A stretch of DNA of 64,000 nt from Dehalogenimonas sp. THU2. GTDB lineage: Bacteria > Chloroflexota > Dehalococcoidia > Dehalococcoidales > Dehalococcoidaceae. The stretch is from NCBI RefSeq assembly GCF_039749495.1, contig NZ_JBDLLU010000005.1, forward strand, positions 62,001 through 126,000, written 5' to 3'. Below are positions 41,816 to 47,952 of the stretch, in pieces. The position numbers were made by a program, and so were the translations under genes. Under the pieces are notes generated by a model. It was not told where the DNA came from and searched no databases. It saw only the letters and a list, made by a program, of their open reading frames with translations. How positions within the stretch are numbered: the stretch's first letter is position 1; the number at the start of each line of letters is the position of its first letter.

Positions 41816-42121
41816 ATGAGTTCAAAGGTTGTCACCCTCGATGTTAACGGTAATGATGTTCTCCTATCCTTTTTCGTGCAGACGTTTTTCGATAAGGTGC
41901 TGGACGGCATGGTCGGTGCTCTTGAAAGCGCCTGCCAGGTGGAAACCCTGGAGCTAAAGGCCGGCGCAGGAGATACTACACTGACGGTCAACGGCACCTC
42001 CATAAGTATGAACGAGTTCGTCCGGACCGCCTTCAGGAACACGACGCGAGGTATGATCTCCAGTCTCAGAGGCATCGACAAGATCGATACTTTCATTATC
42101 CGCATCGGCGGCGGCAAATAA
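41816..42121 (+). CDS. Conserved-looking small protein of unknown function
   Basis: 101 aa, preceded by a very strong ribosome binding site (AGGAGGT at 41806-41812). Two halves of similar length each start with an amphipathic strand (VVTLDVNGNDVLLS and LTVNGTSISMNEF) followed by FVQTFFDKVLDGMV- and FVRTAFRNTTRGMI-like helices, so it may be an internal duplication of about 45 residues. No cysteines in motifs, no signal peptide, no membrane helix. I do not recognise the family. Confidence 0.75.
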   Translation: MSSKVVTLDVNGNDVLLSFFVQTFFDKVLDGMVGALESACQVETLELKAGAGDTTLTVNGTSISMNEFVRTAFRNTTRGMISSLRGIDKIDTFIIRIGGGK

Positions 42122-42176
42122 GGCCGCTTTTCATGCCTGATGCCGTTATAGTGCTAAAGAGGACAATTATGTTGCG

Positions 42177-43085
42177 ATGACGGTACAGGTTATCCGAAGA
42201 TTCCTGACAAACGCGGTCTTCTTAACAATACTCCTGATGGCAGTCACGGCCTGCGACCTGCCACCCTCCTCTTCCACCATTTTCACGCCTACCCAACTCA
42301 GATACCGCCTGCTGGATGCCTTCCCCGACTTCTTCTGGTGCGACCCGGATTTCTTTCCCATCGGCAGCTCGGAACGGGAATTACAGAATGCCCTCGACCA
42401 GTTCGACGGCATCCGAGCCAACGATGATGAGTTCAATGCCATCGTGAAACGCATCGGTCTGGATCACAAGCTCAATTACACCACCGAGGAGCAATTGCTG
42501 GTTTATCGGCAGCACAAGCTTCTGACCCGGGCGATAAGTGAATTCCTGTCCTCCGGCGACGGTTTCAGTTTCGTCATCCGCGTCGGACAGGACGGGCAGC
42601 AGGGTGAACGCATCCAGGGCAATATCGCCACGGACGGGCGGATCAGGGTGGCCGATCGCGAACCCAGCTTCAATAGCTGCCCCATCTGCCTGGCAAAGGG
42701 AACTTTGATCGACACCCCGCAGGGTCCGGTGGCCGTCGAAGACTTGGTAGTAGGTATATTGGTTTGGACACTCGATGAGAGCGGACAGCAGGTGGCGGCA
42801 CCGGTTATCAAGACATCGAGGACGCCGGAGCCAGCCATGTTCCAATTGCTCTGTATCACCATGGAAGATGGCAGAATCTTGACGGCTTCACCCGGTCACC
42901 CGGCGGCGGACGGACGGCTGCTGGCCGTGCTCGATCCCGGAGACACCCTCGACGGTGCGGCCATCGAGTCCATAGAAATCGTCGACTATACCGGCCGTAC
43001 GTACGACATTCTCCCCGGCGGAGATACCGGGTGGTATTGGGCGGACGGTATTTTGCTGGCCAGCACGCTTGCCGAGAAACCCTAA
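42177..43085 (+). CDS. Lipoprotein with C-terminal Hint (hedgehog/intein) domain
   Basis: 302 aa. Lipobox VTAC (Cys 26); an uncharacterised helical part (about 35-160); then a Hint domain: the nucleophile-like Cys 171 in CLAKGTLIDTPQGPVAVEDL, an SPGHP block with His 241 and the closing strand pair YTGRTYDILPGG...WYWADGILLAST. The usual last His-Asn of inteins is replaced by Ser-Thr, so full splicing is not expected; an N-S acyl shift with cleavage or attachment at Cys 171 is possible. The translation start is weakly supported, with AGAGGA 13 bases upstream. It is transcribed towards nadE, which has its own promoter. Confidence 0.82.
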   Translation: MTVQVIRRFLTNAVFLTILLMAVTACDLPPSSSTIFTPTQLRYRLLDAFPDFFWCDPDFFPIGSSERELQNALDQFDGIRANDDEFNAIVKRIGLDHKLNYTTEEQLLVYRQHKLLTRAISEFLSSGDGFSFVIRVGQDGQQGERIQGNIATDGRIRVADREPSFNSCPICLAKGTLIDTPQGPVAVEDLVVGILVWTLDESGQQVAAPVIKTSRTPEPAMFQLLCITMEDGRILTASPGHPAADGRLLAVLDPGDTLDGAAIESIEIVDYTGRTYDILPGGDTGWYWADGILLASTLAEKP

Positions 43086-45094: not shown

Positions 45095-46120
45095 ATGACA
45101 CAGTGGCAATCCATGCTCAAAGGTGATTCTCTTTCCTGGCTGCTCGAACCGGACACTGAAAACCCCGCCGTTCGCTATCTGGCCCTCCGCGATATCGTTG
45201 GCTTGCCGCAGGATTCCTCCGAACTACTCGAAGCCAAAACGAAGGCTATGACCACGGGTACGATAACGGCTGTGTTGGATAACCAGAGACCAACTGGCTA
45301 TTGGGTAAAACCCGGCGGCGGTTACGGGCCGAAGTATACAGGCTCGGTGTGGTCGCTCGTGACGCTGGCGCAGATGGGCGCCGACAAGTCTGAGCCGAGG
45401 GTGCGGCAGGCGGCAGCGTACCTGTTAGATCATACTGTATCACCGGTCGGTTGGTTCAGCTACAACGGCACCAATTCCGGATTCCTTCATTGTCACGCCG
45501 GGTATCTGGGTGCGGCGATGTTTGCCCTGGGTTTTGGAGACGACTTACGGGTGACCGCGGCTATCGATTGGCAAGCCAGAATGATAACTGGTGAGGGCAT
45601 AGCGGAAGCGGGAAGTGAGGAATCGGCCAGGTATTACCACTATACCACGGGACCGGGATTTATCTGCAGCGCCAACGCTAATAAACCCTGTGCGTGGGGC
45701 GCTGTCAAGGCGATGCGGGCTCTTGGAAGCGTACCTGGTGGTCAGCGTACATTGGCGATGGATTCTGCCATAGATCGAGGCCGGCAGTTCTTGTTGAACA
45801 CCGATCTGACTGTTTGCGACTTTCCTACACGTGATAAAACTAAAGCCAGCGGCAATTGGTTCAAATTCGGCTTCCCACTGCTGTACGTCGCGGATCTGTT
45901 GGAGCTTATTGAAGTTTTGACGGTGTTGGGTGGCGGTGGGGACCTCCGGCTGGAAAAAACCTGGAAGCTGGTCCTCGACAAGCAGGATGATCAGGGACGC
46001 TGGGCGATGGATTACAGCTACAATGGAAAGCTATGGTCAGGCATCGAAGTTAAAGGTGAACCGAGCAAGTGGGTTACGCTCAGGGTATTACGGGTGTTGA
46101 AGAGGGCGTTTCCAAACTAA
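45095..46120 (+). CDS. Alpha-toroid (terpenoid-cyclase/prenyltransferase-like) protein
   Basis: 341 aa, with AAGGAGGAG just before the ATG. The sequence is a set of helical pairs of the alpha-alpha toroid fold (RYLALRDIVGLP, WSLVTLAQMGADK, AAAYLLDHT, the GFLHCHAGYLGAAMFALG segment and DDQGRWAMDYSY near the end). The catalytic Asp-rich box of squalene cyclases is absent. Relatives in Chloroflexota are often labelled 'nitrogen fixation protein NifH' by mistake. Real function unknown. Its end overlaps the convergent gene by four bases. Confidence 0.65.
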   Translation: MTQWQSMLKGDSLSWLLEPDTENPAVRYLALRDIVGLPQDSSELLEAKTKAMTTGTITAVLDNQRPTGYWVKPGGGYGPKYTGSVWSLVTLAQMGADKSEPRVRQAAAYLLDHTVSPVGWFSYNGTNSGFLHCHAGYLGAAMFALGFGDDLRVTAAIDWQARMITGEGIAEAGSEESARYYHYTTGPGFICSANANKPCAWGAVKAMRALGSVPGGQRTLAMDSAIDRGRQFLLNTDLTVCDFPTRDKTKASGNWFKFGFPLLYVADLLELIEVLTVLGGGGDLRLEKTWKLVLDKQDDQGRWAMDYSYNGKLWSGIEVKGEPSKWVTLRVLRVLKRAFPN

Positions 46121-47952
46121 CCGCACTGCCATTTCTTACAATCCGGGCAATCGCCGTCAGGTCGCCAGTTCGACGATAGCGCCGGGTGGACGCCGATTGT
46201 TAAGAGCAGGTCCAGCATCAGGCAAGGCGGCAAGCCTACCACGTTCGAGTAACAGCCTTTGATACGGGCGACGGGATTGAATTCTTTATCCTGGATGCCG
46301 TAAGCCCCGGCTTTATCCAGCGGGCTGTCGCTGTTGACATAAACCTCGATTTCCTGGTCGGTGTAATGCCGCATAGTGACCTGGCTGGCGAGGTGGTCCG
46401 AGACCGTTTCGCCGGTGGCGGCGTCGGTGACGGCTATCGCGGTGATGACGCGGTGGGACTTGCCGCGGAGTTTCTTCAGCATGTCGGTTGCCGCTTCCGG
46501 CGATCCTGGTTTGCCCAATATTTCGTCACCCATGACCACGATGGTGTCGGCGGCAATGACAGTGCCGCTTTCGCAGTTTACCGCCACTGCCGCCGCCTTG
46601 GCGCGAGCATGAGCGACAGCTTGTTCCTCCGGTGACAGACCTTCGGTCGGTGTTTCGGGGACGTTGGACGCCACGGTCTCGAACTTCAACCCCATGGCGG
46701 TGAGTATTTCGCTGCGGCGGGGTGAGGCGGAGGCCAGAATGAGATTTTGACGATTCAGAAAAGCTTGTTCTTTTTCGGGGGTCGATCTCAATGTGGCCAC
46801 TGTCTCTACATGGTAGGTCTGCGGAAAAAGGTCTACCGGTGTGATGTCCTCTATCTCGTAAGGACCGTGGGTCAATACCCGCAGATCGCGGGCCAAGGCT
46901 TCGGGATTGCAGGAAACATAAACTAGACGTTTCGGCGGATAAAAATTCAGGGTTTTCAGCGCAGCCGGATGGCAACCGGTGCGTGAAGGGTCGATTATTA
47001 TGGCGTCGGCCAGCCTGCCCAGGTGAGGCAGCACCGATTCCGTCTTTGCTTCGAGTAGTTCGACGTTGTGGAGGCCGCGGACGTTCTCCCGGGCGTCTTT
47101 TATCGCCGCGCCGGATTCTTCGATGGCGATGGCCTTTTTGACGTACGGCGCCAGCAGAACGGCAAAGGTCCCGACACCGGCGTAAGCGTCGATAAGGGTC
47201 TCACCGCCCGTTAGGCTCAACCGGTTCCGGATGAGATCGGCCAGGCGTTCGGCTTGGGATGTGTTCACCTGGAAAAAAGCCGGTGAAGACACCCGGAACC
47301 GGTGTCCGGAAAGGATCTCGTGGTAATAGGTTTGCCCGGTGATGACGGTGACATCCGGGTTTTTCAGCTTGGGTTGGATGAGGTAGGAATCGGTGTTTAC
47401 CCCATAGCGGATGGAGAACTGGGTCGTCTCGGCGCAGCGGCCTTCCAAAGCGGCCATGAGGCTATTTACGCCCTCGGCCATGATGGGGCATTGGTCCACG
47501 GGAACGAAACGTCGTGTGACGCGGTTGATGAAGCCGAACCGGTTCATGCGGCGGCGCACCGTGAGACGCGCGTGATTGCGGTAACCGAATTCAACCGGCG
47601 AGGATAAAGCCGGCTGAATAACCGTATCGATGTCTTTAGCCCTGAGCGCCCGTTCGACTAGTGCGTGTTTGAGTTCAAGCTGGTGCCGGTAGTCTATATG
47701 CTGCCATTGGCAGCCGGAGCATTCGCCGAAATGTTGGCAGACCGGGGAGCGGCGGTGAGGAGAAGGTTCGATGACGCTCTCGACGACAGCATCAATGCCG
47801 TCGTCATTGCTTCGGATGACCCGCGCCGTCACCGTCTCGCCGGGGATACCGCCGAAAACGTTGACCCTTTTGTCGTCGTACTCGCCAATGACGTCACCGA
47901 ACTCGCCGAAGCCTGTAATCCGTACGGTGATGATCTCGAACGACTCATTCAT
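46117..47952 (-). CDS. RlmD-like RNA m5U methyltransferase fused to Maf pyrophosphatase
   Basis: 611 aa, one continuous frame. Residues 1-60 are a TRAM-like domain, followed by a [4Fe-4S] site Cys 72, 78, 81 and 155, and a class I methyltransferase with DAYAGVGTFAVLL (about 254-266), DPSRTG (321-326) and nucleophile Cys 348 in VSCNPEALARDL; this is the RumA/TrmA family that methylates uridine C5. From residue 404 a complete Maf domain follows: LILASASPRRSEIL, AADTIVV (467-473) and AYGIQDK (550-556), a pyrophosphatase of modified or canonical NTPs. The tail (CPDC..C, last ten residues) may bind metal. The two activities are usually separate genes. Confidence 0.9.
   Translation of the reverse strand: MNESFEIITVRITGFGEFGDVIGEYDDKRVNVFGGIPGETVTARVIRSNDDGIDAVVESVIEPSPHRRSPVCQHFGECSGCQWQHIDYRHQLELKHALVERALRAKDIDTVIQPALSSPVEFGYRNHARLTVRRRMNRFGFINRVTRRFVPVDQCPIMAEGVNSLMAALEGRCAETTQFSIRYGVNTDSYLIQPKLKNPDVTVITGQTYYHEILSGHRFRVSSPAFFQVNTSQAERLADLIRNRLSLTGGETLIDAYAGVGTFAVLLAPYVKKAIAIEESGAAIKDARENVRGLHNVELLEAKTESVLPHLGRLADAIIIDPSRTGCHPAALKTLNFYPPKRLVYVSCNPEALARDLRVLTHGPYEIEDITPVDLFPQTYHVETVATLRSTPEKEQAFLNRQNLILASASPRRSEILTAMGLKFETVASNVPETPTEGLSPEEQAVAHARAKAAAVAVNCESGTVIAADTIVVMGDEILGKPGSPEAATDMLKKLRGKSHRVITAIAVTDAATGETVSDHLASQVTMRHYTDQEIEVYVNSDSPLDKAGAYGIQDKEFNPVARIKGCYSNVVGLPPCLMLDLLLTIGVHPALSSNWRPDGDCPDCKKWQCG

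Follow-up and report, generated by a model that had tools for sequence, protein, structure and literature searches.

A predicted lipoprotein of Dehalogenimonas with a C-terminal Hint domain, conserved first-step residues and a co-varying cysteine pair

Analysis of a 64,000-nucleotide stretch of DNA from Dehalogenimonas sp. THU2 (the window) revealed a gene whose 302-residue product comprises a signal peptide with a lipobox, an exported domain of ~130 residues and, at its end, a Hint domain spanning residues 171–298 (Table 1). Sequence comparisons and structural models make it reasonably probable that this is a self-processing surface lipoprotein that resembles hedgehog minus the sterol part. 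Most likely, judging by those same data, the Hint domain would either cut itself off or pass the membrane-anchored domain to a nucleophile. That reading is favored by a match to the Hint_2 profile, fold similarity to inteins and Hedgehog with Z-scores of ~18, a nearly invariant catalytic set, and loss of the intein His-Asn with only a short tail behind it, as well as by purifying selection in both domains and the occurrence of a signal peptide with lipobox in 58 of 59 sequences, the window protein included.

Table 1. Features of the Hint lipoprotein gene and its product. Positions are those of the window; conservation counts refer to the 59-sequence set and include only those sequences with a residue in the given column.
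Feature	Position	Strand	Evidence or remark
Likely ribosome-binding site AAAGAGGA	42156-42163		upstream of Hint lipoprotein gene
Hint lipoprotein gene	42177..43085	+	302 aa; ORF list, homologues
Signal peptide, residues 1-25	42177..42251	+	hydrophobic run up to lipobox VTA/C
Cys26, predicted lipidated cysteine	42252..42254	+	Cys in 55/55
Exported N-terminal domain, residues 38-167	42288..42677	+	four helices and four-stranded sheet in model
Cys55, probable disulfide partner of Cys168	42339..42341	+	co-variation with Cys168
Cys168, position -3 before Hint Cys171	42678..42680	+	co-variation; aligns with -3 of 3nzm
Pro169-Ile170, before predicted scissile bond	42681..42686	+	invariant, 59/59
Cys171, predicted Hint nucleophile (Cys1)	42687..42689	+	59/59; aligns with Cys1 of inteins
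Hint domain, residues 171-298	42687..43070	+	Hint_2 match, fold matches
Block B Ser238-Pro-Gly-His241 (intein/hedgehog TxxH)	42888..42899	+	Ser 58/59, His 59/59
Asp277, block F aspartate	43005..43007	+	56/56
Ser296-Thr297, replacing intein terminal Asn and +1 residue	43062..43067	+	each 55/56

The original prediction, made from the sequence alone, had singled out this open reading frame for the motifs CLAKGTLIDT (with Cys171), SPGHP (238–242) and DGILLAST (290–297), all of which are present, and had described its product as an exported lipoprotein with a C-terminal Hint domain that lacks the His-Asn of inteins, a description that our analyses bear out. The hydrophobic signal peptide leads to the lipobox VTA/C26, so that the protein carries the signal peptide with lipobox cysteine of a bacterial lipoprotein, as called by a simple rule of our own and not by a trained predictor. 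A chance open reading frame can be dismissed since both domains and the whole protein are kept in other genomes, and dN/dS values were 0.07–0.38 in eight homologue pairs.

The Pfam profile Hint_2 (PF13403) matched residues 170–214 with an E-value of 2.8e-9 (37.9 bits versus a cut-off of 28.4), a match that spans only profile positions 1–45 of 147. All 48 complete homologous Hint domains were also matched by this profile at E-values up to 1, and 38 of them at that limit by the NCBIfam model for the intein N-terminal splicing region, whose match to residues 171–242 of the window protein is sub-threshold. Structure prediction, which had been proposed as a check, yielded a full-length AlphaFold model (from a 12-sequence alignment) with a horseshoe Hint fold and a mean pLDDT of 84. 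When residues 168–298 of this model were compared with solved structures, the best matches (Z 17–18, rmsd 1.5–2.0 Å, 118–129 residues) were to the DnaB and gp41-1 inteins, Drosophila Hedgehog (1at0, Z 17.9) and a Clostridium thermocellum BIL of unspecified type (2lwy, Z 17.9). The structural alignments place residue 171 on intein residue 1 and on Cys258 of Drosophila Hedgehog, and several intein alignments, those of gp41-1 and Mtu RecA among them, stop at residue 296, which corresponds to the last intein residue. With its profile match above the cut-off, predicted horseshoe fold, and Cys1 together with the block B S/TxxH, the domain belongs to the Hint superfamily as judged by sequence and model.

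Inteins need a penultimate His and a terminal Asn for C-terminal cleavage. Both are replaced in every complete homologue, and the chain ends soon afterwards, at Hint positions 130–142 (counting Cys171 as 1), which is ~4 residues past the Hint fold in the window protein and fewer than 16 in all complete homologues. The Hint lipoprotein therefore cannot splice, having neither a terminal Asn nor a C-extein. The residues expected to act first are retained: block B positions 7 and 10 and position F:4 (usually Asp) are first-step or assisting residues in inteins (PMC4031507), and T326 and H329 of the hedgehog TxxH motif have first-step roles (PMC9163320). Their counterparts are nearly constant although identity to the window protein drops to 20% in the N-terminal domain, with Hint domains at 44–62%. 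Sequence comparison thus indicates a domain in which the residues of the first step (N-S acyl shift and thioester formation) are conserved and those of splicing lost, as in hedgehog, a combination that fits the cleavage or transfer suggested by the original prediction.

The position of the chain end also bears on whether the domain is a degenerate intein or the releaser of a polymorphic toxin (PT-HINT), setting free a toxin at the C-terminus or joining exteins, an idea to which we give almost no credence. Hint domains are known in such systems, and in other Chloroflexota there are Hint stretches inside open reading frames of about 300 to 3,700 residues, but every complete homologue stops within ~15 residues after the Hint domain, with no cargo behind it, and lacks His-Asn. 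The residue just past the site of the intein terminal Asn has suggested a further alternative, in which the acyl group of the thioester would move internally to Thr297 (+1). The resulting branched ester would be stable or slowly hydrolyzed, as there is no Asn able to cyclize. The column is Thr in all sequences except one, which has Ser, and the +1 residue that performs this step in inteins is Cys, Ser or Thr (PMC4031507); however, the structural alignment provides the first and last aligned residues only and hence no geometry for residue 297, and Thr297 may be structural. Such a transfer has a slim chance of being correct.

For the self-processing reading we infer lipidation, a disulfide, thioester formation and cleavage, in the following manner. 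The protein would be exported, lipidated at Cys26, anchored in the membrane and folded, after which Cys171, aided by Ser238, His241 and Asp277, would attack the Ile170-Cys171 peptide bond to produce a thioester. Resolution of the thioester by water, or by a small or surface nucleophile, would release the Hint domain and leave the anchored domain ending in ...Cys-Pro-Ile, its C-terminus free or modified. Position −3 is taken by Cys168, which is probably disulfide-bonded to Cys55 and would position or gate the junction. N-terminal cleavage of inteins is slower when the −1 residue is bulky and beta-branched, as Ile is. Here the −1 residue is an invariant Ile, where hedgehog has Gly (PMC9163320), and this counts against self-processing; by analogy, the Ile may make spontaneous hydrolysis slower and favor a specific acceptor.

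The conserved residues could also serve a stable fold or binding, and it is conceivable, albeit unlikely, that the Hint fold is catalytically silent and retained for binding or for structure, with the protein staying whole on the membrane. Consistent with this are the lack of a downstream extein to free, the Ile at −1, the lack of a known substrate, and the fact that the terminal Ser-Thr and many non-catalytic residues are equally invariant. Against it, Cys1, the block B Ser and His and the block F Asp are nearly exceptionless over the 59 sequences, whereas occasional loss of Cys1 would be expected of a purely structural domain.

A detail of the Hint lipoproteins that is new is a pair of cysteines, Cys55 in the exported domain and Cys168 immediately before the junction. 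Both are present in 53 sequences and both are replaced (Val, Tyr) in six, with loss of a single one in none of the 59, and the two columns rank first of 36,074 long-range column pairs by normalized mutual information. On a tree built with both residues masked the pair changes state three times, and strong branch support requires at least one of these changes; independent events are thus few. A genome with two copies of the Hint lipoprotein (G329; L044 and L066) has one with and one without the pair. The simplest reading of the co-variation suggests a Cys55-Cys168 disulfide beside the active site. In the predicted model Cys168 aligns with the residue at −3 in 3nzm, the structure of a redox-trap intein, which makes an exchange between Cys168 and Cys171 conceivable. 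A strict Cys168-Cys171 redox trap was not supported as a general need, as Cys168 is gone and Cys171 kept in six sequences. No homologue of VKOR, a candidate source of the disulfide, was found in the window's genome, which counts against the self-processing reading. A more elaborate version of that reading, which we regard as distinctly unlikely, is a redox-gated counterpart of hedgehog in which the Cys55/Cys168 pair silences the Hint domain until a redox or nucleophile signal, with transfer of the lipid-anchored domain then to a specific surface acceptor or to Thr297; if true, the outcome would be a doubly anchored or remodeled surface protein.

The exported domain ahead of the Hint domain was modeled with high confidence on its own (pLDDT 95, pTM 0.87, from the 59-sequence alignment), and Pfam contains no family for this part of the protein. 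Fold searches of the PDB with the model returned weak matches only, the best being a designed cystatin fold (Z 4.3) followed by NTF2-like proteins; Z-scores of 4.3 or less are too weak to name a fold, and both identities were dropped, the absence of a match being no proof of a new fold. The hedgehog signaling domain was absent from the results of both sequence and fold searches with this domain. One conserved N-terminal domain is common to all homologues, always ahead of the Hint domain. Additional domains seemed to be present in the long upstream frames of some homologues, but nearly all of these were sequence 5' of the lipobox; L007 has an additional stretch of ~100 residues between lipobox and N-terminal domain.

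The search for homologues with the same N-terminal part, as had been recommended, was productive: 59 sequences, including the window protein, share the architecture, nearly all from Chloroflexota and one from a methanogen. The whole protein occurs in 12 of 101 related genomes and 16 of 156 genomes of the order, and a search of the phylum found matches in 68 of 400 genomes, ~46 of them full-length or nearly so and the remainder Hint-only or partial stretches. A GTDB genome scan added one Methanoregulaceae contig, and other phyla were covered by one pattern scan tuned to Dehalococcoidales. The contig, from a metagenome-assembled genome, encodes its Hint lipoprotein at L026:4938-5738 among open reading frames that look archaeal by eye, which points either to bacterial–archaeal gene transfer or to a binning error. 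Searches of viral contigs identified no homologue of the whole protein, and with the Hint alignment only two partial N-terminal Hint matches; plasmids and phages gave no match to the Hint lipoprotein.

Within the window's genus the gene was found in five of the eight members searched, directly before nadE in all five (the window included), and the other three have no detectable remnant before nadE. This is the only conserved neighbor, and only within the genus; outside it the neighbors differ. Other features near the gene in the window include a 101-residue open reading frame just 5' of it (41816-42121, +), which resembles a C-terminal piece of the MobB/FeS-domain models PRK14494 at scores far below the model cut-offs, and a protein (45095-46120, +) whose similarity to squalene-hopene cyclase domains is weak and sub-threshold. 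A further open reading frame (46117-47952, −) fuses the 23S rRNA methyltransferase RlmD and the nucleotide pyrophosphatase Maf; this fusion is a single frame in all eight genomes searched of the genus, and a sister-genus genome (G008) has RlmD and Maf as two neighboring separate genes.

The original prediction had considered such proteins little studied, which holds with one precedent. Burglin (2008) outlined a bacterial group, separate from inteins, Hog and BIL, whose members end in a Hint-like domain and have in common an N-terminal region and two conserved cysteines upstream, some of them also carrying a signal peptide (PMC2362128). Its members include Myxococcus xanthus MXAN_6253 and proteins of S. 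aurantiaca, Reinekea, Photorhabdus, Serratia and Yersinia, and the group had been detected earlier also by Dassa and Pietrokovski (PMC2362128). The Hint lipoproteins share the C-terminal Hint domain, signal peptide and two upstream cysteines with that group, as compared by description only. The two cysteines are missing from six of the 59 Hint lipoproteins, which are mainly from Chloroflexota, whereas the 2008 group was drawn from proteobacteria and myxobacteria; no lipobox, cysteine co-variation or activity is reported in the accessible part of that paper. Because the description matches well, the Hint lipoproteins look like a lipid-anchored Chloroflexota branch of this uncharacterized Hint class, and thus an understudied variant and not a new kind. 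No functional study or activity test of such Hint proteins was found in the searchable literature, nor were papers naming MXAN_6253 or plu1731, or joining Dehalogenimonas and intein.

Among better known systems, hedgehog shares the layout of the Hint lipoproteins: both have a secreted N-terminal domain followed by a C-terminal Hint domain with Cys1 and S/TxxH and no Asn. Unlike Hog, the Hint lipoproteins have no sterol-recognition region after the Hint domain. The general base of Hog is an Asp or His at Hint position 46; by residue count, no Asp or His is conserved at positions 43–49 of the Hint lipoproteins. B-type BIL domains have intein motifs except the C-terminal one and are expected to undergo N-terminal cleavage (PMC7765530). 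The Hint lipoproteins have the same set of motifs, but B-type BIL domains lie in variable regions of non-conserved proteins, whereas here the Hint domain always follows the same conserved domain and forms the C-terminal end; from A-type BIL domains they differ in having no C-terminal His-Asn. With inteins they share the fold, Cys1 and the block B and F residues, and their Cys at −3 falls on residue −3 of 3nzm, but they have no endonuclease.

Hint-driven modification of a protein C-terminus is known in detail for hedgehog. Bacterial lipoproteins of hedgehog layout, maintained by purifying selection throughout a phylum and found in one methanogen, would make hedgehog-like transfer in prokaryotes, and its natural nucleophile, testable, and the small size of both domains (~130 residues each) makes them suited to structural and chemical work.
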